This document shows positions 30,734-52,531 of a stretch of 52,531 nt of DNA, piece after piece. The DNA lies in NCBI GenBank assembly GCA_947476735.1, contig CANJRZ010000004.1, forward strand, positions 1 to 52,531, given 5' to 3'. The translations under genes were made by a program, and so were the position numbers. Position 1 is the first letter of the stretch. Each line of letters begins with the position of its first letter. Below the pieces are notes generated by a model. That model ran no database searches and was not told the origin of the DNA. It worked only from the letters and a program-made list of their open reading frames with translations. The stretch is from Sphingomonadaceae bacterium. GTDB taxonomy: Bacteria; Pseudomonadota; Alphaproteobacteria; Sphingomonadales; Sphingomonadaceae.

Positions 30734-31683
30734 TCTTGTCCGGTATTGCGAACATCGACTTCGAGCAAGGGTGCCAGGCGGACAATATCCTCGCCGTCGC
30801 TCAGGCTCAGCACGCCGCGGAAGCGTTTTTCCGCGACGCGCGGATCGACACGTACCGGCTGGCCCGACCAGCGGCTGAGATCTGCCGCGATCTCCGCCAT
30901 CGTCTGACCGTCATAGATCAGCCTGCCATCCTTCCAACCGGCGATCGACGCCGGGGACATGGCGCCCAGCGCAAGCAGCGCGTCGCCATCGATCGCGCGC
31001 AAGGTGCGGCCCGCATCGAGACGCACTGCGGAACTCTCGGGATTGTAGATAACGGCACCCTCGGCAACCTGAACCGCTGTGGTCTTTCCTTCGCGCACCA
31101 CATTGAAGCGGGTTCCGACATCCACCAGTGTCGCATCGCCAACCGCTACTTTGAATGGCGCATCGTCGTTATGGATGACATCGAACAGCGCCTCGCCGCG
31201 TTCCAGCACCGCATAGCGGGCGTCCTTGCGGTCGAGCGTGATCGCCGTGCCTCCGTTCATCGCGATCCGGCTTCCGTCCTCCAGCGTGACGGTCCGGCGG
31301 GCGCCGGGTGCTGTCTCGATCTGATAAAGCGCGGGTTGCCGGTCGATCACCGTCACGCCGACGATGGCCGCGACCGAGGCTGCAATCGCGCCGCCCAGCC
31401 ACCGCCGGCGCGTGATCGGCTGCTTCGGGGCCGGTGCGATGATCGGCCGCAGTGGCGGCGCGTTCGCCAGCAACCGGGCCATCTCTTCGTCGGCGAAAGC
31501 CAGCCGATGATAATCTTCAGCATGCGCAGGATCGGCAGCGAGCCAGGACTCGAACTCCGTCCAGCCGTCAAAGGCCGGATCGCGCAGGCGGATCACCCAA
31601 TCGAGTGCCGCGCTTTCCATATTGGTCCTGTCCTCAGCCATGAAAGTACTTCCCCACGAGCAGGACGGAGTCGATCGCATCAA
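30706..31683 (-). CDS. FecR-family anti-sigma regulator
   Basis: LDWVIRLRDPAFDGWTEFESWLAADPAHAEDYHRLA N-terminal; single TM; FecR core VTLEDGSRIAMNGGTAITLD. Start may instead be 31641. Confidence 0.93.
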   Translation of the reverse strand: MMRSTPSCSWGSTFMAEDRTNMESAALDWVIRLRDPAFDGWTEFESWLAADPAHAEDYHRLAFADEEMARLLANAPPLRPIIAPAPKQPITRRRWLGGAIAASVAAIVGVTVIDRQPALYQIETAPGARRTVTLEDGSRIAMNGGTAITLDRKDARYAVLERGEALFDVIHNDDAPFKVAVGDATLVDVGTRFNVVREGKTTAVQVAEGAVIYNPESSAVRLDAGRTLRAIDGDALLALGAMSPASIAGWKDGRLIYDGQTMAEIAADLSRWSGQPVRVDPRVAEKRFRGVLSLSDGEDIVRLAPLLEVDVRNTGQEWVLAPPAQ

Positions 31684-32192
31684 GCCTCATCGAACTTGCT
31701 CCTCAGTTCGATCATTGCACGATAGGCCCGTCTGAGATCACTTTCGACGGTGCTCAGGCTGACGCCGAATTCGGCTGCGATGTCACGTTGTCCGACCCCG
31801 TCGATGCGGTGTCGACGGAAGATGGCGGCGGTTCGTTCGCCGAGCGCGTCGAGCGCGGCCTGGGCTAGCCGGAGCTGTTCGCGGGCAATCAGCCGGCGTT
31901 CGCTGGATGGATCGTCAGACTGGCCCGGAATCGTGGTGGCCGCTTCCGTCCAGTCCTGGTCGCGCCTGACCGCCTGCTGTTGCGAGCGATAGCGATCGAG
32001 CATCAGGTTGTTCGCCGACCGATACAGATAGGACAAAGGTTGCGCGATCGGTCCGGTCGGCGCCGACGCGATCTTCAGCCACAACTCCTGCAGCAGGTCC
32101 TCGGCCGCATCACCGGCCCCGTGCGTGCGCAAGAAGGCGAGCAGCCGATCCCGGTTCGACAGGAAAACGGCCTCCAGGCCGGTGCTGCTCAT
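31680..32192 (-). CDS. ECF sigma factor, FecI-like
   Basis: GDAAEDLLQELWLKI (region 2), SYLYRSANNLMLDRYRS, VSLSTVESDLRRAYRAM (region 4); overlaps fecR by 4 bp. Confidence 0.94.
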   Translation of the reverse strand: MSSTGLEAVFLSNRDRLLAFLRTHGAGDAAEDLLQELWLKIASAPTGPIAQPLSYLYRSANNLMLDRYRSQQQAVRRDQDWTEAATTIPGQSDDPSSERRLIAREQLRLAQAALDALGERTAAIFRRHRIDGVGQRDIAAEFGVSLSTVESDLRRAYRAMIELRSKFDEA

Positions 32193-37709: not shown

Positions 37710-40004
37710 TTGGCGCTAAAGGCGTCGCCGGGGGTTACGGGTGTTGGTAATGTTGCTGCGTTTGAGTGTGCTGTGGTGCTGATCCAGCGTCTTCGGTGGG
37801 GCAGCATCTTCACCGTGCGCGAAGAACGCGAGGCCTTTGCCTCGCAGATCATCGCCTGGTCCCTGCTGATCGTCCTGGTGATGGCCACTTTGCTGGCCGC
37901 CTTCATATGGGTAGCGGCCCGCAAGGCCGACGAGCTCGCGATTGACCGCCAGCAACATCTGATCGCAATCGTCCTCGAGCAGAACTTCCGCTCGGTCGCT
38001 CAGGATCAGGAATCATCCACTGTCTGGGACGACAGCGTCAAACAGATGCGTGCGCGCGCACGCGATCTTCAGTGGATGGATGATAATCTCGGCATCTGGT
38101 TTCACACCTATTTCGGCCATGACGAGATTCTTATCGTCGATGGTAACGACAATCCGATTTACGCGATGCGCGAAGGAAAGCGCATTCAGGTCGAGAGCTA
38201 TGCAAGGGGTTTCGGTACGGCGGCCACGCCATTGATCGCCGAGCTTCGCTCGAAGATGCGGCGCGGTGTGCCTGTTCGCAGAGCGAGTTCGATCCTGACG
38301 CCCGGCGCGATTGATCTCGGCATGGTTCACGGCCACCCGGCGATTGTCAGCGTCAAGCCGATTGTATCCGATTCCGGCGAGATCAGGCAGCGGCCAGGCG
38401 CCGAATATGTTCACGTCAGCATTCGCTATCTGGACGGGACTTTTGTGGCCGATCTGGCACGGCGCTATCAGCTCGCCGGCGGCCAGTTTTCTGCGACGCC
38501 GCCGGTTGAAAGCGACGCCAGCAGCGTGCCGTTGCGGACGCGTTCGGGGCGGACAATAGGCTATTTCAGCTGGGATCCGTTCCGGCCCGGCACGGCCATG
38601 CTTGGCCAGCTGGCACCTGCGCTGGTCGGTGCACTGCTGCTCGTTTTCGGCATCGTCGCCTGGCTCCTCTATCGGATCAGGCGGAGCACCATCCTGCTCG
38701 GTGACGCCCGGACCCAGGCACAGCACCTGGCCGATCATGATGCGCTGACCAGCCTCGCCAACCGGGCGCTGTTCGACAAGGAACTTAACCGCCGCCTGGC
38801 CGAGCCGAGCCCCAAACTGGCTCTGCTTTACGTCGATCTCGATCACTTCAAGAATGTGAACGACCATCTCGGCCATCCAACCGGCGACCTGCTGATCGTC
38901 GCCCTGTCGCGCATCCTGGCCGAACTCGCACCTGCGGACGTTGTGGCTCGCGTCGGCGGCGACGAATTCGCGATCATCCACATGGCAGCCGATGCCGTGG
39001 CCTCCGCAGAGAAGTTGTGCCGCAAAATCCATCGCGCGCTGGCACGGCCGATCGATCTTGGCCAGGGCGAGGTTCTGATCGGCGCCAGCATCGGCATCGC
39101 TATAGCTCCGACGGATGCGACCGATCCGGTCGATCTGGTCCGCAAGGCGGACATTGCGATGTACGATGCCAAGCTTTCCGGTCGCCGCCGGCACAGTTTC
39201 TACGCGGAACCAATGGGCAGGCGGATCCGCGAGCGAGGCGAGATCGAGACCGATCTGCGAGACGCGATGCGGACCGGCAAAGGGCTAAGCGTCGTCTATC
39301 AGCCCTACTTCGAGGCCCGCTCGGGCGCCATGGTTGGCGCCGAGGCACTGATCCGTTGGCACCACCCTACACGCGGAATCACCCTTCCGGAGCAGTTTAT
39401 CCCAATTGCTGAGGAATGCGGCCTGATCGAGACACTCAACGAATGGGTGCTTGAACAGGCTTGCGTGGCGGCGGCGCGCTGGCCGTCGGGGACCGTATCG
39501 GTCAATCTTTCGCCGGTACAACTTCGTAATCCGTCGCTGGCCGAGCGGGTGTTTGCGATCCTCAAGCGCATCCGTCTCAACCCCGACCGTCTGGTGCTGG
39601 AAATCCCGGAAGCCAGCTTTCTCCAGAGCAACCGGGCCGCACGCTCGAACCTCGGCTGGCTCAGCGACATCGGGGTGCAGATCGCGCTCGACGATTTCGG
39701 CACGGGTTATTCGTCGTTCAAGCAAATGGACGGCTTCGAAGTCGACCATATCAAGATCGATCAGAGCTTCATTGCGATGATCCAGTTCGGTCATGGCGGT
39801 AGTCCGGTGATCAAGGCGATCGTCGACCTCGCCCGCTCAAGCGGCCTTCAGACGACCGCCGAGGGCGTCGAGACCGAGCAGCAGCGCCTGTACCTTGCCA
39901 GCATTGGCTGCGACATGCTCCAGGGCTCCCTGCTATGCGGGCCACTGAGCGCGGCGGATATTTCAGCGCGGTTCCATGCCGGTTCGGATCCGCAGACGAG
40001 CTAG
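37710..40004 (+). CDS. CHASE4-GGDEF-EAL membrane protein (c-di-GMP turnover)
   Basis: TM helix, CHASE4-like sensor (VWDDSVKQM...WFHTYFGHDEILIVDGND), VARVGGDEFAII, GAEALIRWHHP, DDFGTGYSSFKQM. Start uncertain. Confidence 0.88.
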   Translation: MALKASPGVTGVGNVAAFECAVVLIQRLRWGSIFTVREEREAFASQIIAWSLLIVLVMATLLAAFIWVAARKADELAIDRQQHLIAIVLEQNFRSVAQDQESSTVWDDSVKQMRARARDLQWMDDNLGIWFHTYFGHDEILIVDGNDNPIYAMREGKRIQVESYARGFGTAATPLIAELRSKMRRGVPVRRASSILTPGAIDLGMVHGHPAIVSVKPIVSDSGEIRQRPGAEYVHVSIRYLDGTFVADLARRYQLAGGQFSATPPVESDASSVPLRTRSGRTIGYFSWDPFRPGTAMLGQLAPALVGALLLVFGIVAWLLYRIRRSTILLGDARTQAQHLADHDALTSLANRALFDKELNRRLAEPSPKLALLYVDLDHFKNVNDHLGHPTGDLLIVALSRILAELAPADVVARVGGDEFAIIHMAADAVASAEKLCRKIHRALARPIDLGQGEVLIGASIGIAIAPTDATDPVDLVRKADIAMYDAKLSGRRRHSFYAEPMGRRIRERGEIETDLRDAMRTGKGLSVVYQPYFEARSGAMVGAEALIRWHHPTRGITLPEQFIPIAEECGLIETLNEWVLEQACVAAARWPSGTVSVNLSPVQLRNPSLAERVFAILKRIRLNPDRLVLEIPEASFLQSNRAARSNLGWLSDIGVQIALDDFGTGYSSFKQMDGFEVDHIKIDQSFIAMIQFGHGGSPVIKAIVDLARSSGLQTTAEGVETEQQRLYLASIGCDMLQGSLLCGPLSAADISARFHAGSDPQTS

Positions 40005-40176
40005 CCCGTTCGCTTTCCCGGATCGGAAGATTGTGGCAGGGGCGCAACAGTCCTGTGCGATGCCGGATGTGGCCTATCAGAACAATACGCCCCTGCGAGC
40101 CGCTGGCTAAACTTCCGCAGCTTCAAGGTCCAAACAGGGCCATTTTTCTAGATAAACGCCATTTGGGGAGGGGTGT

Positions 40177-42417
40177 ATGAACAAGTTCGGATCTCGGTTG
40201 TTGCTGGCCACCAGCGCATTGGCGTTTTCCGTGGCCGCTCAGGCCCAGGATAAGCCGGCCGCCGCCGATGAATCGGTTGGCATCGAGGACATTGTCGTCA
40301 CGGCGCAGCGCCGTTCGGAAAATGTCATGTCGGTTCCGCTGGCGATCAGCGCGTCGACCGGTCCGATGCTCCAGGCTGCGGGCATCAAGGATCTGACGGC
40401 CATTCGCTTCGCTACGCCGGGCTTCATCGCGCAATCGGGCACCGGCTATACCCAGATTTACATCCGCGGCATCGGTAACGGCGTGTTTGTCGGCGCCGAT
40501 CCGTCGGTCGCCACCTTCGTCGACGATGTGCCGCACGTCTACGGCAGCCTTGTCGACGATCTCGTCAACGTCGAGCGCGTCGAAATCCTGAAGGGCGCGC
40601 AGGGCGGTCTCTATGGCCGCAACGCCAGCGGCGGCGTGGTCAACATCATCACCCGTCAGCCGTCGGACGAAATCCATGCGGAGGCCCGGTTCACCGCGGC
40701 GACGCGCAAGACCTACCAGGCTTCGGTCTATGTCAATATTCCGATGGGTGACCGTCTTGCGGCGAACTTCTCGGCAACCCGCAACTATCACGGCCCCTAC
40801 CGCAAGAATATTGCGTTCAGCAGGCCCTATAGCGGCTTCCCGGCTGCCGGCGCGGCCAACAATCTCGCAAATCCCGGCAAGGTCCAGAACCAGGACGTCT
40901 GGTCGGTCGACAGCAAGATTCGCGCGAACCTCACCGATGACGTGAAGGTCACGCTGGCGGGCGATTATACCAACAAGCATGACGCGGACGGCAATGGGTG
41001 GATCAACACCAATCCTGCGCTGACCTATGGCACCTACCGGTTCCTTGCCGGTCTGTTCGGCATCACGCCGCTCGCCCGGTGGGCGGATCTCACCGCCAAG
41101 CAGAACGTCTCCTATGGCGCGATCCCGAACAAATCCTGGACCAAGGATTTCGGTGGATCGGTGAAGATCGAGGGTTCGCTCGGCGGCGTCGATCTGACGT
41201 CGATCACCGCGATGCGGGCCAACCGGTCGCAGTTCCAGGGTGACATCGGCGCTTCACCGGTGCCGGTCGCAGGGTTCAGCACCAATTTCCGGCGTCACTT
41301 CTTCTACCAGGAGCTGCGCGCTCTTTCGACGGGGGATGGTCCCTTCCGGTGGGTGGCCGGTGCGACCTATTTCAAGGATCATGTCGACGCCTCGATCATC
41401 GGCATCACGCTGGGTTTCCCCGGCGCGGCGACCAAGTCGAAGATCAACACGAAGAATTATTCCTTCTATGTTCAGGGCGCCTACGACTTTACCGACAAGC
41501 TGACCCTCACAGGCTCGGTGCGTTATGCGCACGAGACCAAGACGGTCGACTTCCCGACGGTCGGGGCCTCCCTGGCGTCGAGCGACGAGACCAAGGTTCA
41601 TAAGTTCATCCCGGCCGCGACGCTCAGCTACAAGGTCGATGGCGGCACCGTCTATGTGCGCTATGCCAAGGGCTTCAAGACCGGCGGCCCGAACCCGCTG
41701 GTACGTCCTGACCGACTGAATGCGCTGCCTGCCGCCCAGCGGGTCGGCTTGCGGCTCAAGCCGGAGAATGTCGATACGTTCGAAGCGGGCTACAAGGCCG
41801 CACTGTTTGATCGCCGGGTCCAGTTCACCAGCGCGATCTTCTACAACAAGTACAAGGGCATTCACGTCACCACGTCGGGCACTGTCGGCAACACCGACAT
41901 TTCCAACGCGCTGATCAACCTGGGAACGGCGCGCAGCTATGGCGCCGAGGCCTCGATCAACTGGAAGCTATCTTCGGCGCTGACGCTGTCGGGGAATCTC
42001 GGTTATCTCAACGCGAAATATCAGAATGCCTTTTTCGCGGGCAATGCCCTGCTCAACGGGCGGAACGCCAGCGGCAATCGGATGATCCTGGCGCCGGAAT
42101 GGCAGGGTGGAGCCCAGATCGCCTATGATCAGCCGGTCAGCGATGACTGGCGGATCAAGTCGAACGTGGCGTTCGCCTATATCAGCCATCACGAGTTCAC
42201 TGCCCAGGAGGATCGCAACGCCGATCAGCCAGGCTATGCGAACGTGAATATACGTGTCGGCACCGTCACGACCGATGACCGGCTGGGCTTCTATATCTTT
42301 GCCAACAATGTGTTCGACAAGCGCTACTTCGTGTTCGGTTCGACGAGCGCGCTGAGCAGCTTCGAAGTGCCCGGTAATCCGCGGATCATCGGCGGTACGA
42401 TCGAGGCCAAATTCTAA
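40177..42417 (+). CDS. TonB-dependent receptor
   Basis: Signal peptide MNKFGSRLLLATSALAFSVAAQAQ; TonB box region IEDIVVTAQRR; VERVEILKGAQGGLYGRNASGGVVNIITRQP; barrel ending in GGTIEAKF. Confidence 0.95.
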   Translation: MNKFGSRLLLATSALAFSVAAQAQDKPAAADESVGIEDIVVTAQRRSENVMSVPLAISASTGPMLQAAGIKDLTAIRFATPGFIAQSGTGYTQIYIRGIGNGVFVGADPSVATFVDDVPHVYGSLVDDLVNVERVEILKGAQGGLYGRNASGGVVNIITRQPSDEIHAEARFTAATRKTYQASVYVNIPMGDRLAANFSATRNYHGPYRKNIAFSRPYSGFPAAGAANNLANPGKVQNQDVWSVDSKIRANLTDDVKVTLAGDYTNKHDADGNGWINTNPALTYGTYRFLAGLFGITPLARWADLTAKQNVSYGAIPNKSWTKDFGGSVKIEGSLGGVDLTSITAMRANRSQFQGDIGASPVPVAGFSTNFRRHFFYQELRALSTGDGPFRWVAGATYFKDHVDASIIGITLGFPGAATKSKINTKNYSFYVQGAYDFTDKLTLTGSVRYAHETKTVDFPTVGASLASSDETKVHKFIPAATLSYKVDGGTVYVRYAKGFKTGGPNPLVRPDRLNALPAAQRVGLRLKPENVDTFEAGYKAALFDRRVQFTSAIFYNKYKGIHVTTSGTVGNTDISNALINLGTARSYGAEASINWKLSSALTLSGNLGYLNAKYQNAFFAGNALLNGRNASGNRMILAPEWQGGAQIAYDQPVSDDWRIKSNVAFAYISHHEFTAQEDRNADQPGYANVNIRVGTVTTDDRLGFYIFANNVFDKRYFVFGSTSALSSFEVPGNPRIIGGTIEAKF

Positions 42418-42456: not shown

Positions 42457-43659
42457 CTATATCAATATCTCGGAAAACCCACCGCGCATGCAGTGGTTCG
42501 ACGCCATCGCCGAACCATAGCCGCCGGCGTTGACCAGCGCGATCCGGTCGCCTTCCTCAAGGGGCGGCATCAGATGGTCCTCGGCCCAGAGGTCGAGCGC
42601 CTCGTTGATATTGCCGGCGACACTGACCGGCTGCCATCGCGCCGGGTCAGTCTCGCGCGGCACGCAAGCGACCGGCTCGCAGGGCAGGTCGTAATGAGCG
42701 GGCTCAGGATGGATGTTGAAGCCGCCGTCAACCGCGACGAACAGCGTGTCGCGCTTGCGTTCGACTCCGACGACGCTCAGTAGGAGCAACCCGGCATCCT
42801 TGACCAGATAGTCGCCCGGCTCGGTGGCTATGGTCAGTCCGCGTCCGAGGAAATGGCGTGCGATGATTGCAGACCAGCGGTCGAGGTCGAGCGGCGCCTC
42901 GCCGGCGCGATGCGGCAGACCAAGGCCGCCGCCGAGATTGACGCTGCGCACGTCCGGCAGATCGGTCAGGAAAGAGGCGGCGGCGCCGACCGCCTTGTCC
43001 CAGGCATCGAGCTGTCGCGAGAGAAAGCCGCAGCCGACGTGGAAGTGAATCGTCGTAATGGTCAGCCCGAATTGTGCGGCAAGCGCGAGCGCTTCGATCC
43101 ATTGCTCGCGGTAGATGCCGAACTTGGTGGTACGTTCACCGGCATAGGTGAGCCTGGCATGGTCGCCATAGCCGACGCCGACCCCGGGATTGACGCGTAT
43201 GCCGATCGCGCGGCCCGGTGTCCGCTCGCCGATCCGACGGATCTGACTCAGCGAGTCGCAATTGATGTGAAGATCGGGCTGGGCGAGCAGCCGGTCGAGA
43301 TCGCGGTTGGAGACGCTTGTGCCGGTAAAACTGATATCGCGCGCAGCGAAGCCCGAGGTGAGTGCGAGGTCCATCTCGTCAGGCGAGCAGACATCGATGC
43401 CCATTGCACCGTCTTCCGCCATGAGATTGAGCAGCGGCCGGAAGCGGTTGCACTTCATCGCGTAATGGAGGTGGTGCGGGCAGCCCGAAGCGGCCAGCGC
43501 GGTTCGCAGCCGGGCGATATTGGCGCGAACGCGGTCTGCGCTGTAGAGGAAGAGCGGGCCGTCATGGTCCCGGGCAAGTCTGTCGACATCCTGGCCGGCG
43601 AAGGTCAGCCTGCCGTCTTCATATCGCAGGTCGTCGCGCGCCCACCACTCAGCAGCCAT
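42457..43659 (-). CDS. Fold-type III PLP-dependent enzyme (Orn/DAP decarboxylase-like)
   Basis: HYAMKCNRFRPLLN (PLP Lys), IHFHVGCGF, NLGGGLGLPH, EPGDYLVKDAGLLL, NAGGYGSAMASNHCMRG. Start MAAEWWARDD; the longer ORF start would run through the SET gene. Confidence 0.88.
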   Translation of the reverse strand: MAAEWWARDDLRYEDGRLTFAGQDVDRLARDHDGPLFLYSADRVRANIARLRTALAASGCPHHLHYAMKCNRFRPLLNLMAEDGAMGIDVCSPDEMDLALTSGFAARDISFTGTSVSNRDLDRLLAQPDLHINCDSLSQIRRIGERTPGRAIGIRVNPGVGVGYGDHARLTYAGERTTKFGIYREQWIEALALAAQFGLTITTIHFHVGCGFLSRQLDAWDKAVGAAASFLTDLPDVRSVNLGGGLGLPHRAGEAPLDLDRWSAIIARHFLGRGLTIATEPGDYLVKDAGLLLLSVVGVERKRDTLFVAVDGGFNIHPEPAHYDLPCEPVACVPRETDPARWQPVSVAGNINEALDLWAEDHLMPPLEEGDRIALVNAGGYGSAMASNHCMRGGFSEILI

Positions 43660-44128
43660 CGCGTGCCTGGTGCTCGCGTTCGGTGAGCCATGCCTGGCCT
43701 TCTTCGTTCGGCTGCTCGACACGCCCTGTAATCCATCCGCGGCAATTCCCTGCGCCGCAGGCGCAGGCGAACTGGCGGTGAAGCCGGTCCTCGGTCTCGG
43801 CATAGTCGACGGTAACGATGTCTCCGGGCGCGATGTCCCGGCGGGCGACCAATTCGAAATTTGCCATGTCGAGTGCCGAATTCGGGTCGCAGCCGTGGCT
43901 GAGATAACCGATGTAGCGCGTCCCGCTGATGTGTTGCCCGTCCCCGACCTGGAGGCTGTGCTGGCAGATATGATCGCTGACCACACCGGCGAAGCGATGT
44001 ACCACGCTCCCGGTCGTGAACGGCCGAAGCGCTCGCACGCCAAGGCCGCGGGACTCGTCAAGCCGGATGACTTCGAGCATCCCGTCTTCCTCCGGTCGTG
44101 CGCTTGCCCGGTCCGGCGCGGACGTCAT
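43649..44128 (-). CDS. SET domain protein (putative protein-lysine methyltransferase)
   Basis: RIGYLSHGCDPNSALDM (NHSCxPN-like), DIVTVDYAETED, post-SET CACGAGNCRGW; overlaps the PLP enzyme start by 11 bp. Confidence 0.82.
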   Translation of the reverse strand: MTSAPDRASARPEEDGMLEVIRLDESRGLGVRALRPFTTGSVVHRFAGVVSDHICQHSLQVGDGQHISGTRYIGYLSHGCDPNSALDMANFELVARRDIAPGDIVTVDYAETEDRLHRQFACACGAGNCRGWITGRVEQPNEEGQAWLTEREHQARDGC

Positions 44129-44171: not shown

Positions 44172-44570
44172 TCAGAATGTCTTGCTGAATATCAGCCGAT
44201 TTTGGCCGTTTTCATATGTGTAGACGACCTCGTCCATCATCTCTCGGACGAGATGAATCCCGAGTCCTCCAATGCTCCGTTCGTCTATGTCGAGATCGGT
44301 ATCCGGAGCAGGTCGCGCAAGCGGATCGAAGGGTGGTCCGTCGTCGGCGATCGTCGCTCGAAACATCCCGTCGGCAATCGTTATCGCCAGATCGATCCTA
44401 CCCCCGCCATATTTGGCGATGTTGCTCAATATTTCATCGAAGGCGATCATCAGCCGGGCGATATCGCCGCCGGATACGCCCGCTTCCTCGAGCCAGGCCT
44501 GGATGGCATCGAGCAGACCCGGGAGCTGCTCAATCGCCGCCGGCAGGCTGCGCGTGAATTCAACCGACAT
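44172..44570 (-). CDS. RsbW-like anti-sigma/serine kinase (HATPase_c_2)
   Basis: N-box FDEILSNIAKYG, ADDGPPFDP (G1), IGGLGIHLVREMMDEVVYTYENGQNRLIF (G2). Start MSVEFTRS; ORF extends to 44588. Confidence 0.88.
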   Translation of the reverse strand: MSVEFTRSLPAAIEQLPGLLDAIQAWLEEAGVSGGDIARLMIAFDEILSNIAKYGGGRIDLAITIADGMFRATIADDGPPFDPLARPAPDTDLDIDERSIGGLGIHLVREMMDEVVYTYENGQNRLIFSKTF

Positions 44571-44700
44571 CGCGTCGGCGCCCTTCATCGCTCAGGACTA
44601 TCGTTCCGATCGGCGTGGCGATAATCATATGGATAATCGGTCCCCGCTCCTGATATGCAGCAAGCCGCGATTGCCCGCGCAACACAAGAGATTAGACGAT

Positions 44701-45033
44701 ATGAACATCAGCGAAAATAGCCGTGATGGTGCGCTTGTGATTGCCGCTGCGGGCCGGCTCGACAGCAGCACGGCTGCGGTGCTCGAAGCTGTCCTGCCTG
44801 CACGGGTCAAGGTGCAGAAGGCCGTTATCCTGTGCCTTGCCGAGGTGCCCTATGTCAGTTCGGCGGGCCTGCGCGTGCTGCTGATCGGGGCCAAGGCTGC
44901 AAAGGCGGCTGGCAACAGGCTGGTCATCACGGGACTTTCGCCCGCGGTGCGCGAAGTGTTCGACATCAGCGGATTCTCGAAGATCTTTTCGATCGAGGTC
45001 GATGTCGAGGCCGCGGTAGTGGCGATCGGGTAA
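44701..45033 (+). CDS. STAS domain anti-sigma factor antagonist
   Basis: MNISENSRDGALVIAAAGRLDSSTAAVLEAVL ... VILCLAEVPYVSSAGLRVLLIGAKAAKAAGNRLVITGL; phosphorylatable Ser in PYVSSAGLR. Confidence 0.9.
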   Translation: MNISENSRDGALVIAAAGRLDSSTAAVLEAVLPARVKVQKAVILCLAEVPYVSSAGLRVLLIGAKAAKAAGNRLVITGLSPAVREVFDISGFSKIFSIEVDVEAAVVAIG

Positions 45034-45035
45034 GG

Positions 45036-45311
45036 TTAGCGCCGTGTCAGGCCGTGGGTGAAGACCACCCGGCTGACCTGGTCCGCGATCACGCTGGGAT
45101 CTACCCCGTCGGTCTTCATTTCCCGGACATAGGAGGATAGCGGCTCAACGATCTCGTCCCGCTGAATCCCACCGAGATAAAGATTGAGCCGGCTGCGCCA
45201 TTTCTCCTTCAGTTCGGCGGTCCAGCCTTCGCCCTTTTCCTTGTCGGAGACCGGCGCGTCGAGCGCCGAAATCACCCTGCCGAGATCAGACTCAAGCTCG
45301 ATATTACCCAT
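45036..45311 (-). CDS. Hypothetical protein, 91 aa
   Basis: MGNIELESDLGRVISALDAPVSDKEKGEGWTAELKEKWRSRLNLYLGGIQRDEIVEPLSSYVREMKTDGVDPSVIADQVSRVVFTHGLTRR; non-GC-shadow composition. Confidence 0.65.
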   Translation of the reverse strand: MGNIELESDLGRVISALDAPVSDKEKGEGWTAELKEKWRSRLNLYLGGIQRDEIVEPLSSYVREMKTDGVDPSVIADQVSRVVFTHGLTRR

Positions 45312-45421
45312 GATGCATGCCCTCCCAACTTCAGACTGAAACCCAAATATCGGTAACGGTACAAAACGCTGCCGGAACTATACGCCAGCTTTGGTCCGGC
45401 GAACAGGATTCATGCCGCGAA

Positions 45422-45889
45422 TCATGTGCGCGACGTCTGGATTAGCTCGACCGTATAGCCGCTGAAATCCTTCACGAATGCGACATGCGGGCCGCCGGGG
45501 ATCAGCACGGTCGGCGGCGTCAGGACTTCCGCTCCCATCGCGGCGAGCTTCGCGACGGTGCCCACGACGTCCGGGGCGCCAATCGCGACATGGCCATAGC
45601 CGGTGCCGTGGGTGGGTTCGCTCTCGTCATCCCAAATGCGGACCAGTTCGATCACGCCGCCCTGGCTATAATCGCCGTAGCCGATGAACATCAGATCGGT
45701 GCGCCGGACCTCGACGGTGAAGCGGTCGAGCATCTTCATGCCGAGCCCGTCGATGTAGAAGCGGAGCGCCGGCTCCCAGTCGCTGACGCGGATCATGGTG
45801 TGTAGGACGCGCGGCGTGCTGTCCTCGCTACCCCAGACCCACAGCGCGGGGTTGAAATCGTCGGCCTTTGGTTCGTCTGTGCCCGGCAT
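45422..45889 (-). CDS. VOC (glyoxalase/bleomycin resistance) family protein
   Basis: VLHTMIRVSDWEPALRFYIDGLGMKMLDR ... GYGHVAIGAPDVVGTVAKL ... GGPHVAFVKDFSGYTVELIQ. Start MPGTDEPK. Confidence 0.88.
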   Translation of the reverse strand: MPGTDEPKADDFNPALWVWGSEDSTPRVLHTMIRVSDWEPALRFYIDGLGMKMLDRFTVEVRRTDLMFIGYGDYSQGGVIELVRIWDDESEPTHGTGYGHVAIGAPDVVGTVAKLAAMGAEVLTPPTVLIPGGPHVAFVKDFSGYTVELIQTSRT

Positions 45890-45903
45890 GTCCTGCTCCG
45901 TTG

Positions 45904-47112
45904 TTATCTCGTGACGGCTGCAACCCGTTCGCTGGCTGTCGCTATGATCCCGGCATCCGGGAAGAGAGCTGCCAAATCGGTGGTCAGCGTCTCCGGATCG
46001 AGGCCCGGGTTGCGCTCGACATAGTCGCGCATGGCCTGTGAATTCCCGTAGAGCCCCAAGGTGACCAAGCCGCCGGCCCCCGCATGGAGCCCGCTGACGT
46101 GAACGGTCTTCGCATTGAAAACCTGTTTGGCAGAGGCAACGCACTCTGTGAACTTGTCCGCCGGACTGGAAGATAAATAGCTGGCGAAAGCAACTGCCGA
46201 GGCAAACGCTGCAGCGGGATCTCCAGCCATCTCTCCCACAGCGAAAAGCAAGCCGTCGTCCTGGGCCTTGCAGACATAGAAGCTTCCTGCCGGCCCACTG
46301 GGAAGCAGACGGATCGCAAGCGCTACTCCCGCATGATCCATCGACAGGTCCGGAAAATGCCTCGCCCGCGCGGCGGCGATGCCGATTGCGGGATCGCCTT
46401 CGCCCCCCCGGCGGCCAAGCCGTCGCAGCTCGCTGGCGACGCTGGCGTCGATCAGGTGGACCGCGTCGGCAAGGTCGCGGACCTCGCGGATTCCGAGCGG
46501 CGCGTCCTGTTGGCGGTCGCCATGCGTCTCGATGATCGTCCGAGTGCGGCGTAATTCGCCGATCACACGGCGGGCGACGATCAGGCCGATCAGCATAGCA
46601 AGGACAGCCGCGCCGGCGACCAGCGCGAGCGACATGCGTTTGAGGTGGAAGAAGCGGCGGGCCAGCGGTTCGGCGTCGATATCGGCGACCACCATCGTGC
46701 CCCGACCGACCGGCGCCAGCGCGGTGATCAGATGACGGCCCTTCGCATCCTCCCAGGTGCCGAGAACATCGGCTTGGGCCGGGGCCCGCCCCTCTCGCAC
46801 CAGCGCAATCGGGCGGGAGAGCAGGTTCAGCGTCTGCCTGCCCGGGCCCGTCAAATAGAGCGCATCGAGCCCGGTGATCTCCCGGTTGACATTGTGGAGG
46901 GTCGCGAGGCGGCGGGGTTCGGCGAGGTCGGCGTAAGGGTTGGGAGAGGCCTTGGCGAACTCGGCGACGGTCACCGCAGCCGCCAGTGCTTCCTCGCGCA
47001 GGCCCGCCTCCATGTCGGCGGTGTCCTCGCGATAAAGCAGCACGCTATTGATCGCGGCGAGCAGCAGGAAGAGCGGAAGCGCCAGTAGCAGGATGATAGT
47101 CCGGACGCTCAT
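45904..47112 (-). CDS. Membrane sensor with degenerate SpoIIE/PP2C-like C-terminal domain (putative pseudophosphatase)
   Basis: N-terminal TM, extracytoplasmic sensor, second TM/HAMP-like region; C-terminal GPAGSFYVCKAQDDGLLFAVGEMAGDPAAAFASAVAFASYL aligns by eye with GGDLYNFAMIDENRLFFVIGDVSGKGVPAALFMAMA of the 51102 gene. Confidence 0.72.
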   Translation of the reverse strand: MSVRTIILLLALPLFLLLAAINSVLLYREDTADMEAGLREEALAAAVTVAEFAKASPNPYADLAEPRRLATLHNVNREITGLDALYLTGPGRQTLNLLSRPIALVREGRAPAQADVLGTWEDAKGRHLITALAPVGRGTMVVADIDAEPLARRFFHLKRMSLALVAGAAVLAMLIGLIVARRVIGELRRTRTIIETHGDRQQDAPLGIREVRDLADAVHLIDASVASELRRLGRRGGEGDPAIGIAAARARHFPDLSMDHAGVALAIRLLPSGPAGSFYVCKAQDDGLLFAVGEMAGDPAAAFASAVAFASYLSSSPADKFTECVASAKQVFNAKTVHVSGLHAGAGGLVTLGLYGNSQAMRDYVERNPGLDPETLTTDLAALFPDAGIIATASERVAAVTR

Positions 47113-47471
47113 GCCACCTCGCTATGCTGGAGCAGCGACACGACGAACTCGGGGAACTCGCGGACGATGGTGAAGACGTGAGGCTTGGCGACGACGAGCG
47201 CGGTGAAGCCGTCGGGGCCGGCGCGATAATCGCCGCGGGCGGAAAGGCCGAACAGCAGGCCGGGCGCGTCGAACACGGGTGAGGTCGGGGCACCCGTTGC
47301 ATCGACCAACTCGCCCTCGATACGTGCCAGCAGCGTCTCGGCAACCGCGCCGGCGGTCAACACGAGCTGCCCGGGCGGATAGTGGCGGACGGACGAACGC
47401 GCGAAGACCAGCGCAAGCGCCGAATCTGTAAGCCGTTCGAAGCCGGGCAGCCGGCGCAGCGTTCCGATCAT
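47109..47471 (-). CDS. Stand-alone cyclic-nucleotide-binding-like domain protein
   Basis: MIGTLRRLPGFERLTDSALALVFARSSVRHYPPGQLVLTAGAVAETLLARIEGELVD resembles the cNMP_binding N-half; 4-bp overlaps with both neighbours. Confidence 0.65.
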   Translation of the reverse strand: MIGTLRRLPGFERLTDSALALVFARSSVRHYPPGQLVLTAGAVAETLLARIEGELVDATGAPTSPVFDAPGLLFGLSARGDYRAGPDGFTALVVAKPHVFTIVREFPEFVVSLLQHSEVA

Positions 47472-48571
47472 GGCGCGGCACCGATCGTCACGGTGCGGCC
47501 GTCGGGTAGCTTAGCCGACGCGCTCTCGCCCTCGGCGAGAATGAGCAGTGGCCCTTTGTCGGTGAACATCGGATCGGCGGCAATCCGCTCGGCGAGAATC
47601 CCTGCGGCGGCGCGGCGGAGAAGCGCATCGGTTTCTGGGGCCTCGGGCCCGGTGAAGTCGAGATGTGGCGCGCTTGCGGCGATCTGTGCCAGCTCGGCAT
47701 CGAGCGCGGCGATGCCCGCCTGGCGCACCGCCGCCTGCGCCTCATCCCGCCGGATGGCGAGCCGGCCGGCCAGGGTCGAAGCGCTGAGGGCTAGCGCGCC
47801 CTGCAGGCTGGCGATGTCGCTCGGTGCGGGAAATGGGTCGAGCGGGCGATGATCGCCGCCGGCGATGCGGAGCGCCTCCTGGCGCAGCCGGTCGAGGGGT
47901 TCGGCGATCCGGCGAACGATGAGGAGCACCGCAAGCGTGCAGCCGAGCAGTGACAGCATGCCGATGACCACGCTGGTGAACAGCGCGTTCTGGGTGGCAG
48001 TCTGGATCAGCGATACGTTGACGTCGGCACCCGCGGTCGCGACGATCCGGCCGCTGGTGCTGCGCACCGGTGCGGAGGCGGTCTTCAGCAGGCCCCATTG
48101 CTGCTGATATTCGATCGGCGAAAGATGAACCCCGCCGTGCGCCTGGACGCGACGGATGCCGGCCAGCGTCTCATCAGGCAGGTCGTCCTCGGAACCGATC
48201 GGGGAGTGATCGTCACCGATCGTTGCATCGAGGACGTAGATGATGTCTTGCCCGCCGCCCAGTATCTGAGTGTAAAGATAGGTGATGTCGAGCTTTTCGC
48301 GGATCCGCCGCATCGGCTCGACGGCGCGCAGATATTCCGGGGTCCGTTCGGCCAATTCACTCTTCGGCTCGCTGCGGGCGATTGCGATCAGCTTGTCATG
48401 GTCGTCAGGATCGATCAGCGCACCGGTCAGCGCGCTGACCGTCGCCAGCTTGCGCGAGAAGCCGTCGAGGATGGTGGCGTAGAGCCGATTGTAGGTGATC
48501 ACACCGAGGCCGATCGCGACCACCGCGATCGCCGGCAGGAAGACCCGCAGCAGCAGCGTCTGGATGGGCAT
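47468..48571 (-). CDS. Membrane sensor protein with HAMP region
   Basis: TM1, extracytoplasmic domain (LDITYLYTQILGGGQDIIYVLDATIGDDHSPIGSEDDL), TM2 and HAMP (IVRRIAEPLDRLRQEALRIAGGDHRPL); no recognised output domain. Start could be 48586. Confidence 0.75.
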   Translation of the reverse strand: MPIQTLLLRVFLPAIAVVAIGLGVITYNRLYATILDGFSRKLATVSALTGALIDPDDHDKLIAIARSEPKSELAERTPEYLRAVEPMRRIREKLDITYLYTQILGGGQDIIYVLDATIGDDHSPIGSEDDLPDETLAGIRRVQAHGGVHLSPIEYQQQWGLLKTASAPVRSTSGRIVATAGADVNVSLIQTATQNALFTSVVIGMLSLLGCTLAVLLIVRRIAEPLDRLRQEALRIAGGDHRPLDPFPAPSDIASLQGALALSASTLAGRLAIRRDEAQAAVRQAGIAALDAELAQIAASAPHLDFTGPEAPETDALLRRAAAGILAERIAADPMFTDKGPLLILAEGESASAKLPDGRTVTIGAAP

Positions 48572-48575
48572 CGCG

Positions 48576-50993
48576 TCAGGCCGCATAGGCGCGATCGTCC
48601 TTGGCCTTGAGCAGGGAGAGCGCCAGATCCGAATAGCGACTGGCGAGATCGAGGATGTCCGCCTGCCGCAGCCACATGGGCGGCGCGCCGGGGACAGTGA
48701 CCGGCATCGCCGCACCCTCCGGCCGGGTCGGGGTGAGGCAGGTGGTGAGGCGGGTCTGGACCTCGATCGAGGCGGGCTCGAACTCGGGGATGGCGGCGAT
48801 CGCGTCGATCATGTCGACGACCGTGTATGGCCGGGCTCCGTCGAGACCGAGCAGCGACATGATCAGGCCGCGTTCACCGGTGCCCATGCCGGAGCGCATC
48901 GCGCCACGCAACCGCATGCCCAGCTCTTCCGCCGGTACGAGATCGCGCAACGACTGCGCAGCGCCATAGACTTCGAGCGGGTTGGGAAAGGCCAGGCGAG
49001 CTTCGAGCATCGCGAGCAGTTCGTTCCGATCGATCGTCCGAGCTGGCTGAGGCTCGATCAACCCCTGGAGCAGCTGGAAGGTCCGACGGTCGAGGCCATT
49101 TTCCATCGCTTCGATCGCATTGGCGCGAACCTTGGGGTTCTGCGAATGCAGCGAGACGATCAGCAAATCGAAGTCAGGCAGTCGTCCGCCGAGCGCCAGC
49201 AGCTCAATCAGAAAGTCGGTCGCCAGGCCGATCTGCTGACGCTGGAAGCGCGCCATCATCCGGGTGGCCGAGGTGGGCAGCGGAAGAGCCTCGAGCGTGG
49301 CGGCGAGGATGAAGCGCGGCGCCGCGCGCTCGAATTCGGCGTGGAGCAGCGCATCGAGTCGCGACAGAAACAGCGAATGCGACAGCTTGGCGAGACTGCG
49401 CGCCGCTATCGCGCGAGCGCGATAAAGCTGGCGGGGGTTGGTCAGCTCGGCCGAAAGCCGGGGGATCGCCGTCTGGCCCCAGTCGACCAGGATTTGCTCG
49501 AGATTGTGGCGTTCGATCGGGCTCAGCCAGGTCGCACTCATCAAAATGTCGGGCACGGCCTCGAGGTCGCGGTTGAAGCGGAGCAGCGCCGCCGCTTCTT
49601 CGCGCATCGCCCGATCGGGGGAGCGGAGGTTTTCGAGCAGGGCGTCTGTCGTAATCGCCGCCGTCGGATCGATCGGAGCGCTTCCGGCCATACTCGTGGC
49701 CCCGAAATCGAGCAGCATCGCCTGCATGTTACGCGCCATGGCGCGCGGATAGAGCTGGCATAGCGCGATCACGACGGCCATCAATACCACGCCAAGCACG
49801 ACGCCCAGTCCCGACAGGTCGCGCAGGTCGGTGCGGTCGGCCGCATAGAGCAGGAAGCCGCCGGAGACGAAGCTGGCCAGCGGTTCGGCGAGCCCCTCGA
49901 CGATGGTACGAACCGGCCGCTTGGTTGCCGACGGCACGGCGTTGAAAAGCAGATTCTGGTTGTTGTACTCGATCGATGTCAGGATGCCCTGATAAGCGAG
50001 GAAACAGGCCAGCGCGCCTTCGAACGAGCCGGTGACAAACAGGAATCCGAATGCCCCGAAATAGGCGATCGGCATGATCAGCGCGACATTGCGAACGCCG
50101 AACCGACCGACCAGGCGATTGAACAGGAACAGGCAAACGAAGACGTTGAACAGGTTGGCCGACGCGTAGAGCGTCCCCATCAGGCTTGTCAGCTGGGCTT
50201 CGCTGCGGCCCTGCTGAAAGACGCGCGAATATTGAAACTCGGCAAGGTTGGTCAGCAGCAGCGTGACGAAAAGGGTAAGGGTGAGGATGAACGTGTAACG
50301 CGACGTGCGGAATGTTTGCGCTACCTGGCGTGCCTGGCTGGCCACCCCCTCATCGCCGTCCTCGACCTCGCTGTCGGCGATCGCCTTCCAGCGGCGGCGC
50401 AGGAGCAGCGCGACCGGCAGAGTCATCAGTGCGATTCCTGCCCAGATCAGGAAGAAGTCGCGCAGCGTGAATATTTCGGCGAACAGGCTGACCAGCATGC
50501 CTCCGGTGCTGGTGCCCAGCGCGGCAGCGGCGGCGAGAAGCGGAAACAGCCGCTTGCCGTCCTGGATGGTGAAATAGGCGTCGGTGTAGTTCCAGAACAG
50601 CGAGTAGAGCGCGATGTACCACATCGCCAGATAGAGCTTCAGGCCGAAGTAGAGCGGCAGCTGCAGCTCGGCCGGCAGCTGCAGACCCAACAGCAGGAAG
50701 CCGGTCACGCCTCCGGCCACGAGCAGCGCGATCGTCGCGTCGACCACGCGATCGAACGAGAAGCGTACCATCAGATAGGAGAACAAACCCGTGTAGAGGA
50801 GCATCACGACCGGTGTCATCATGAAGACGAGCGCGAGCCGGTCGGCGCCGGCATGGGTGAGGAAGGCAGCGTCGCCCGCGCTGAAACCGATGCCGAGGCC
50901 CATTTGCAGCAGGAATCCGAACAGGCCGAACTGGGCAAGCTTGGGCCACTCGCCAGGCATGACGCGGAGCAGACGATCGATCACGCCCGGCAA
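48576..50993 (-). CDS. NTT (ATP/ADP translocase)-like membrane protein with C-terminal HEAT-like repeats
   Basis: About 12 TM N-terminal half (PKLAQFGLFGFLLQMGLGIGFSAGDAAFL ... YSLFWNYTDAYFTIQDGKRLFPLLAAAAALG) resembling NTT/MFS carriers; alpha-helical C-terminal half (RAIAARSLAKLSHSLFLSRLDALLHAEFE, NPKVRANAIEAMENGL). Confidence 0.75.
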   Translation of the reverse strand: MPGVIDRLLRVMPGEWPKLAQFGLFGFLLQMGLGIGFSAGDAAFLTHAGADRLALVFMMTPVVMLLYTGLFSYLMVRFSFDRVVDATIALLVAGGVTGFLLLGLQLPAELQLPLYFGLKLYLAMWYIALYSLFWNYTDAYFTIQDGKRLFPLLAAAAALGTSTGGMLVSLFAEIFTLRDFFLIWAGIALMTLPVALLLRRRWKAIADSEVEDGDEGVASQARQVAQTFRTSRYTFILTLTLFVTLLLTNLAEFQYSRVFQQGRSEAQLTSLMGTLYASANLFNVFVCLFLFNRLVGRFGVRNVALIMPIAYFGAFGFLFVTGSFEGALACFLAYQGILTSIEYNNQNLLFNAVPSATKRPVRTIVEGLAEPLASFVSGGFLLYAADRTDLRDLSGLGVVLGVVLMAVVIALCQLYPRAMARNMQAMLLDFGATSMAGSAPIDPTAAITTDALLENLRSPDRAMREEAAALLRFNRDLEAVPDILMSATWLSPIERHNLEQILVDWGQTAIPRLSAELTNPRQLYRARAIAARSLAKLSHSLFLSRLDALLHAEFERAAPRFILAATLEALPLPTSATRMMARFQRQQIGLATDFLIELLALGGRLPDFDLLIVSLHSQNPKVRANAIEAMENGLDRRTFQLLQGLIEPQPARTIDRNELLAMLEARLAFPNPLEVYGAAQSLRDLVPAEELGMRLRGAMRSGMGTGERGLIMSLLGLDGARPYTVVDMIDAIAAIPEFEPASIEVQTRLTTCLTPTRPEGAAMPVTVPGAPPMWLRQADILDLASRYSDLALSLLKAKDDRAYAA

Positions 50994-51101
50994 GTGCTAC
51001 GCCCCTTCGTTAGGACTACCGCTGGCGTCCCGCCGGTGCGATAGTCATGCCCGGGCGACAGCTTTGGAGCGATTTCAAGTGGATGCAAGGGGCAAGATCC
51101 G

Positions 51102-52531
51102 ATGAACGATCGGCACGGCCGCAGTCCCCGCCGTTTCGGCCTGCGGCCTCAACTGCTGCTGCTGCTGTTCATCCTCAATCTCGTCGCGGCGATCGCCTAT
51201 TCGACGATGCTCTACTCGGTCGACAAGCGCGAGATCATCGGCGGGATCGACGAGCGGCTGGCCACCGCCGCCCATGCGCTGCGCGAGATGATACCGGAGG
51301 GATACCATAGCCGGGTGCACGGTCCGACATCGATCCCGGCCGCCGAGTTCGACCGGATCCAGACGAAACTGTCGCGTTTCGCGGACCGCTCCGGCCTAAT
51401 CTACGTCTATTCCTACATGCGGTTCGGCCCGACCATCTACACGGTCGCGACCAGCGCAACCGACAGGGAACTGCGCAGCGGCAGACAGGTCCGTTTTTTC
51501 GCCCGCTACGATACCGCGCCGAAACTGCTCTACCGCAGCTTCGACGACGGCCAGATTCGCTATGACGAATATCAGGACAGTTTCGGCCGTTTCCGCTCAA
51601 TCTACTTGCCGGTTCGATCCGAGGACGGACGGATTTACGTGATCGGGGCCGACGTTGACCTGGCATCGCTCGACCGCCGGTTGCGTGAAGCGCTCACCAG
51701 CTCGATCCTGATCGGCATCGGCATGTTCATCCTGTCGATGATCGTCGGCTCGCTTCTGGTGAACCGCATCGTGGGTCCGCTCGTGCGGCTGACCGATTAT
51801 ACCCGTAACATCGAGGAACGCAGCTTTGAGTCGAACGAACAGGAACTGTCGGCGATGCAGAAGATAGGCGGCACCCGCCGCGACGAGGTCGGCAGCCTCG
51901 CCGAGGCGATGTCGGCGATGATCTCGCGGCTGCAGCGTTATCTGATCGAGATGGAGGCCGCGACCGCGGCGCGGGAGCGCGTGGAAGGCGAGCTGTCGGC
52001 GGCGCGCGACATCCAGATCGGCATGCTTCCGCGCAGCTTCCCCGCGTTCCCCGAACGCAGCGATATCGATGTCCACGCTCTGCTCGAGCCGGCCAAGGAA
52101 GTGGGTGGCGATCTCTATAATTTCGCGATGATCGACGAGAACCGGCTGTTCTTCGTCATCGGCGACGTCTCGGGCAAGGGCGTGCCGGCGGCCCTGTTCA
52201 TGGCGATGGCGACCACCCTGTTCAAGGCCGCGTCGATGACTGCGGTGAATGTCGCGGCGCTGATGGCGTGGGTCAATACCGAGCTGGTCCGCTACAATGT
52301 CGCCGACCTGTTCGTCACCGCCTTCTGCGGAATCATCGATCTGCGCGACGGCAGTGTCGAATATAGCGATGCCGGTCATGAGGCGCCCTTCCTGCTGCGC
52401 GCCGACGGCAGTGTATCGCGCCTCCCCAAGCCCGAAGGCATGGCGCTCGGCGTTTTCGACGATATCGATTTCGACATCGCCCGCCTCCGGCTCGAACCCG
52501 GCGACGCTTTGATCCTGTTCACAGATGGCGT
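51102..52531 (+). CDS. SpoIIE-family PP2C serine phosphatase with sensor and HAMP domains (runs off the window)
   Basis: Translated by hand from ATG at 51102 (absent from the ORF track because it has no stop in the window): two TM, HAMP, then KEVGGDLYNFAMIDENRLFFVIGDVSGKGVPAALFMAMATTLFKAA ... YSDAGHEAPFLL ... GDALILFTDG. Confidence 0.93.
   Translation, partial: MNDRHGRSPRRFGLRPQLLLLLFILNLVAAIAYSTMLYSVDKREIIGGIDERLATAAHALREMIPEGYHSRVHGPTSIPAAEFDRIQTKLSRFADRSGLIYVYSYMRFGPTIYTVATSATDRELRSGRQVRFFARYDTAPKLLYRSFDDGQIRYDEYQDSFGRFRSIYLPVRSEDGRIYVIGADVDLASLDRRLREALTSSILIGIGMFILSMIVGSLLVNRIVGPLVRLTDYTRNIEERSFESNEQELSAMQKIGGTRRDEVGSLAEAMSAMISRLQRYLIEMEAATAARERVEGELSAARDIQIGMLPRSFPAFPERSDIDVHALLEPAKEVGGDLYNFAMIDENRLFFVIGDVSGKGVPAALFMAMATTLFKAASMTAVNVAALMAWVNTELVRYNVADLFVTAFCGIIDLRDGSVEYSDAGHEAPFLLRADGSVSRLPKPEGMALGVFDDIDFDIARLRLEPGDALILFTDG

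Follow-up and report, generated by a model that had tools for sequence, protein, structure and literature searches.

Transporter-like NTT-HEAT genes with an adjacent cNBD, the BurB/BurI enzyme pair, and partner switches with no known sigma target are each already known. In the first, a transporter-like domain is joined to HEAT repeats and a cNBD-like gene lies nearby (PMC5381601); the text of that paper makes no mention of SpoIIE. In Burkholderia thailandensis, the SET-type methyltransferase BurB converts methionine to S-methylmethionine (PMC12542666), and the PLP decarboxylase BurI, with BurD and BurE, leads from S-methylmethionine onward to DMSP (PMC7496086). Because burD and burE mutants still make the product, at a reduced level (PMC7496086), housekeeping enzymes may replace BurD and BurE. 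BurB has been reported only from B. thailandensis according to a 2026 review (PMC13360808) and is placed only in some Burkholderia by the MmtN study (PMC9135737). In MmtN-initiated DMSP synthesis (PMC9135737), the methionine S-methyltransferase is a class I enzyme; in Rhizobium lusitanum its gene lies beside a decarboxylase gene, with no partner switch seen adjoining. Partner switching in which no sigma factor is known as the target has likewise been described (PMC8256260). SiaABCD and HptB/HsbD of Pseudomonas, SypE/SypA and Btr each combine a PP2C phosphatase, a kinase and a phosphorylated antagonist, and their outputs are c-di-GMP, biofilm or secretion.

The locus described here joins these elements in one unit of ten genes, a combination not found in the open-licence literature within a search of limited scope. 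Like Burkholderia, it has a SET-type methyltransferase and PLP decarboxylase pair, the former similar in sequence to BurB and the latter resembling the decarboxylase of a bur-like cluster. Unlike the bur pathway, it has no aminotransferase, dehydrogenase or NRPS-PKS genes, and it adds a partner switch and membrane sensors. Its decarboxylase is of the same clade as the one beside MmtN, but here the accompanying methyltransferase is of the SET type and a switch is present. Compared with the arrangement in PMC5381601, a HAMP sensor gene stands between NTT-HEAT and cNBD, and the unit adds the switch and enzymes. The switch has the same three components as SiaABCD and its counterparts, whereas the operon-mates are metabolic enzymes. 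Taken together, the locus looks like an undescribed bacterial way of controlling sulfonium compounds without a sigma factor.

The whole stretch of DNA analysed (the window; 52,531 nt) is contig C4 of its assembly, and it stops, at 52531, inside the SpoIIE gene. In relatives, the tenth member of the unit lies near SpoIIE and is a divergent gene for a class III cyclase-like protein; in this genome the cyclase gene is on contig C250, which is not joinable to SpoIIE. The sequence-only reading placed the left boundary at 44172, but the unit extends further left into SET and decarboxylase genes that are co-directional with the RsbW gene. The features are as follows.

42457..43659, minus strand: PLP decarboxylase of the BurI / S-methylmethionine-decarboxylase-like clade (Orn_Arg_deC_N, 2.7e-32; start codon inferred)
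43649..44128, minus strand: SET-domain methyltransferase, BurB-like (PDB 9l4t, BurB, 1.6e-35; SET PF00856, 5.8e-6)
44172..44588, minus strand: RsbW-like serine kinase (HATPase_c_2, 2.5e-23)
44701..45033, plus strand: STAS antagonist (PF01740, 1.2e-16; TIGR00377, 6.6e-19)
45036..45311, minus strand: 91-aa ORF, outside the unit (absent in 8 genus relatives)
45422..45889, minus strand: VOC/glyoxalase-like gene, outside the unit (Glyoxalase, 3.1e-14; absent in 8 genus relatives)
45904..47112, minus strand: membrane sensor with a degenerate PP2C (pseudo-phosphatase) domain (metal aspartates lost; kept in all loci)
47109..47471, minus strand: small cNBD-like protein (weak FtrB match; ortholog publicly annotated 'Crp/Fnr family')
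47468..48586, minus strand: HAMP sensor with two TM segments (HAMP E 0.0013, below cut-off; TM prediction; kept in all loci)
48576..50993, minus strand: NTT-like membrane domain fused to HEAT-like repeats (weak TLC and HEAT_2 matches)
51102..52531, plus strand: membrane SpoIIE/PP2C phosphatase with HAMP, cut by the contig end (SpoIIE, 5.7e-37; HAMP, 3.4e-6)

The RsbW, STAS, NTT-HEAT, HAMP, cNBD and two SpoIIE genes of the sequence-only reading were all recovered at their given positions by open reading frames, overlaps and domains. RsbW (minus) and STAS (plus) are indeed divergent, with starts 112 bp apart and Pfam matches for both. The proposed compact operon stands for HAMP/cNBD and cNBD/degenerate SpoIIE, which each share a 4-bp ATGA overlap, but not for the VOC gene, which relatives lack. 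NTT-HEAT and HAMP overlap by up to 11 bp, and SET and decarboxylase by 11 bp. The phosphatase at 51102, described as intact and divergent, has that strand and a PF07228 match of 5.7e-37 but is cut here by the contig end. Three neighbours were considered as members and set aside: the VOC gene (45422-45889) and the 91-aa ORF (45036-45311), with no counterpart in 8 genus relatives, and a TonB receptor gene (40177-42417), missing from that place in relatives. In most genus relatives a CHASE4-GGDEF-EAL gene adjoins the decarboxylase; here (37710-42417) the TonB receptor intervenes.

The unit would comprise a sensor half (cyclase-like protein, SpoIIE, NTT-HEAT, HAMP sensor, cNBD-like protein and pseudo-phosphatase sensor) and an output half (STAS, RsbW, SET and PLP decarboxylase). 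Among 13 same-genus genomes sampled, 9 have full-length or cut NTT-HEAT matches, and the nine window genes have identical order and orientation in 8/8 same-genus relatives compared. The arrangement is also kept beyond close relatives. When 84,980 species genomes were searched for two exact peptide patterns, which sets a lower bound, at least 36 loci came up, in Rhizorhabdus/Sphingomonas, Novosphingobium, Sphingopyxis, Phenylobacterium, a few Verrucomicrobiota and one Leptolyngbya. All ten genes occur in a single order at 30 alphaproteobacterial loci (Rhizorhabdus, Novosphingobium, Sphingopyxis, Sphingomonas and Phenylobacterium), the carriers being about thirty soil and water bacteria. Nine genes are found at two further loci, one in a Caulobacteraceae MAG and the other in the window, which is cut short by the end of its contig, and at the three remaining scanned loci the output half is absent from the available stretch. 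Apparent alternative gene orders were a product of sorting stop-to-stop frames rather than rearrangement. Verrucomicrobiota and cyanobacteria have looser versions of the unit. Its distribution is patchy, since a class-wide sample of 385 genomes held no strong NTT-HEAT match besides that of the genome studied here. In Sphingomonas paeninsulae the unit, plus a TorF porin gene, is on an 850-kb plasmid.

That the partner-switch genes and the NTT/HEAT operon belong together, as first suggested, is strongly supported by this 30-locus order and by a split case. In Phenylobacterium SCN 70-31, STAS-RsbW-SET-decarboxylase is missing beside the sensor half, and an intact four-gene block is present on another contig; both halves are kept, which amounts to co-occurrence without linkage. 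Additionally, pairwise divergences across the unit genes correlate (r 0.4-0.96), although shared descent by itself adds to this. The sequence-only reading went on to propose that the switch regulates NTT-HEAT as a nucleotide carrier. NTT-HEAT is always present in the unit, and its pairing with an adjacent cNBD gene is a known arrangement (PMC5381601). However, RsbW is co-directional with SET and decarboxylase rather than with NTT-HEAT and travels with them when the unit splits, and nucleotide transport is unsupported in this branch, where TLC scores below cut-off. Carrier regulation is thus quite improbable and is probably not the main point as an output, the constant operon-mates of RsbW being the BurB-type methyltransferase and the S-methylmethionine-decarboxylase-like enzyme. 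A putative place for the HEAT/carrier protein on the sensory side, the alternative offered in the same reading, fits the gene organisation better.

In the switch itself, kinase, STAS and PP2C phosphatase all have intact motifs. RsbW conserves DE..sN, DdG and GGLG; STAS conserves a YVSSAGLR phospho-acceptor site and its Ser; and the SpoIIE at 51102 is complete and conserved in relatives, with intact catalytic motifs. The genome also has a second STAS and RsbW-like pair, on another contig (L141:3039-3398; G000:C453:494-835). A classical Rsb switch would make RsbW the anti-sigma factor of a distant sigma factor, with SET and decarboxylase as members of the regulon that happen to lie in the operon. 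This agrees with the canonical motifs kept in RsbW and STAS, with best NCBIfam matches to anti-sigma families (far below cut-off), and with PMC4552016, where the primary sigma factor is the target of RsbW in Chlamydia. Against it, no sigma factor is constantly placed by any locus (an ECF-trained profile matched only five scanned loci), and the unit occurs on a plasmid and across orders with RsbW and the enzymes still together. A classical switch is rather unlikely here. The earlier statement that no sigma factor is visible here agrees with the vicinity, where none is conserved; the window's ECF sigma gene, at 31680-32192, is in a separate FecI/FecR-type cassette. This cassette (28277-32192) holds ECF sigma, FecR-like and TonB-receptor-like genes, and Sphingomonas paeninsulae has a comparable cassette close to its copy of the unit.

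On the sensor side, two TM-like segments occur in each of three proteins (HAMP protein, pseudo-phosphatase and SpoIIE), and the HAMP protein and SpoIIE are related at their N termini. The degeneracy noted for the 45904-47112 protein holds, as its PP2C metal aspartates are lost: by sequence reading, GGD is AGS and GDVSGKG is GEMAGDP. Its predicted model (pLDDT 89) gave only weak fold matches, including RsbX, the RssB PP2C domain and extracellular sensor domains. NTT-HEAT proteins are 67-69% identical within the genus. The NTT label is retained only as NTT-like: the Pfam TLC score (11.4 vs a cut-off of 21 bits) and the HEAT scores are under cut-off, a phycocyanobilin lyase (HEAT-like) match reaches 8e-5, and a comparison with PHROGs found nothing. 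The best reading is a conserved, NTT-like membrane component. A Chlamydia NTT-HEAT gene might adjoin an rsbV gene, a conjecture that was set aside; a paper search brought up no mention of the gene name tried.

The cyclase-like protein has no Pfam match, but its model (pLDDT 90.5) resembles adenylyl/guanylyl cyclases in Foldseek (from 5.4e-10), and D9 and D68 are invariant. It is thus predicted to fold as a class III cyclase, with putative activity. The cNBD-like protein likewise has no Pfam match; its cassette reads GLLFGL....Y.AGP.G, in which the canonical phosphate-binding Glu and Arg are absent, so cyclic-nucleotide signalling between the two proteins is only a guess. In Opitutaceae, NTT-HEAT, HAMP, cNBD and pseudo-phosphatase genes adjoin class III aminotransferase and NRPS genes (L055:16839-19262, L056:16862-22504). 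Opitutaceae genomes with the sensor half have no member of the decarboxylase clade, which leaves room for the sensor half to act on other outputs. In a cyanobacterial-phylum genome, a distant NTT-HEAT gene adjoins a SET-like gene (E 4e-11; L128:8691-10651).

The nature of the output is suggested by the two enzymes. Among solved SET proteins, the SET protein matches BurB (PDB 9l4t) at 1.6e-35 vs about 1e-7 for histone methyltransferases. BurB residues H72, H93 and Y124 are kept in 32/32 SET copies and R133 in 29; the SAM contacts R42 (12 copies) and H138 (14) are conserved in only part of them. The decarboxylase is 53-58% identical in most pairs to the enzyme of an Eleftheria terrae cluster, which is bur-like by content (SET, aminotransferase, dehydrogenase and PKS/NRPS genes), and about 48% identical to one adjoining an MmtN homologue in Rhizobium lusitanum (PDB 7VVV). 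Unit, bur-like and MmtN-linked decarboxylases form one clade apart from LysA-like enzymes (support 100/98), marked by the motif GN[IV]NEALD (GNINEALD in the window copy); LysA-like genes lie elsewhere in the genome. In loci without SET, the same decarboxylase mostly has an unrelated methyltransferase as its neighbour. A class I methyltransferase takes its place in Verrucomicrobiota and one cyanobacterial-phylum MAG, once fused to the decarboxylase, and another methyltransferase adjoins the decarboxylase in Leptolyngbya. In a PDB search, the verrucomicrobial methyltransferase was not MmtN-like. The strongest case for a methylation-decarboxylation pathway is that one clade of decarboxylases is found over and over beside methyltransferases that are unrelated to each other.

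Public annotation offers a different reading, 'SET domain-containing protein-lysine N-methyltransferase' and 'diaminopimelate decarboxylase', by which the SET protein would methylate protein lysines, the decarboxylase would be a polyamine/diaminopimelate enzyme and there would be no sulfonium link. This is improbable, given a SET protein far nearer BurB than histone methyltransferases, a decarboxylase clade that is separate from LysA-like enzymes and includes bur-like and MmtN-linked members, and the replacement of SET by class I methyltransferases elsewhere. From homology and context, we infer instead that SET and decarboxylase would convert methionine through S-methylmethionine to a sulfonium amine toward DMSP.

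There is about an even chance that membrane sensors of this conserved ten-gene unit control a methionine-derived sulfonium pathway through the partner switch. A signal would set SpoIIE activity; SpoIIE and RsbW would determine the phosphorylation state of STAS; and RsbW, free or STAS-bound, would set the output of the two enzymes. The BurB-type step would yield S-methylmethionine from methionine and the BurI-type step 3-dimethylsulfoniopropylamine from S-methylmethionine. The unit has no equivalent of BurD or BurE, and housekeeping enzymes could carry 3-dimethylsulfoniopropylamine on to DMSP. The direction of the switch, the target of RsbW and the role of NTT-HEAT in this scheme we only infer; control of the pathway by the switch, the most likely of the readings, is judged from gene organisation. 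A more specific version is possible but doubtful. In it, methionine S-methylation and S-methylmethionine decarboxylation would be direct targets of the switch, no sigma factor would take part, the system would have a divergent cyclase, a cNBD-like protein and an NTT-HEAT membrane component of its own, and the sulfonium amine may be a signal read by its own sensors. The observation behind the sequence-only reading is thus confirmed with a corrected extent, and its interpretation is partly supported.

The locus would be a partner switch whose probable metabolic output is encoded in its own operon, and NTT-HEAT proteins, so far uncharacterised, gain a context in which they can be tested. Furthermore, with BurB-like and decarboxylase pairs in some thirty alphaproteobacterial genomes, the number of possible S-methylmethionine or DMSP producers would grow.

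Related genes also occur in other settings. On Rhizobium bangladeshense plasmid p7, a BurB-like SET gene lies between asparagine-synthase-like and S-adenosylmethionine decarboxylase genes (L066:6958-8870), and Rhizobium lusitanum plasmid p_4 carries the decarboxylase, MmtN homologue and polyketide synthase genes together (L069:7911-17158).
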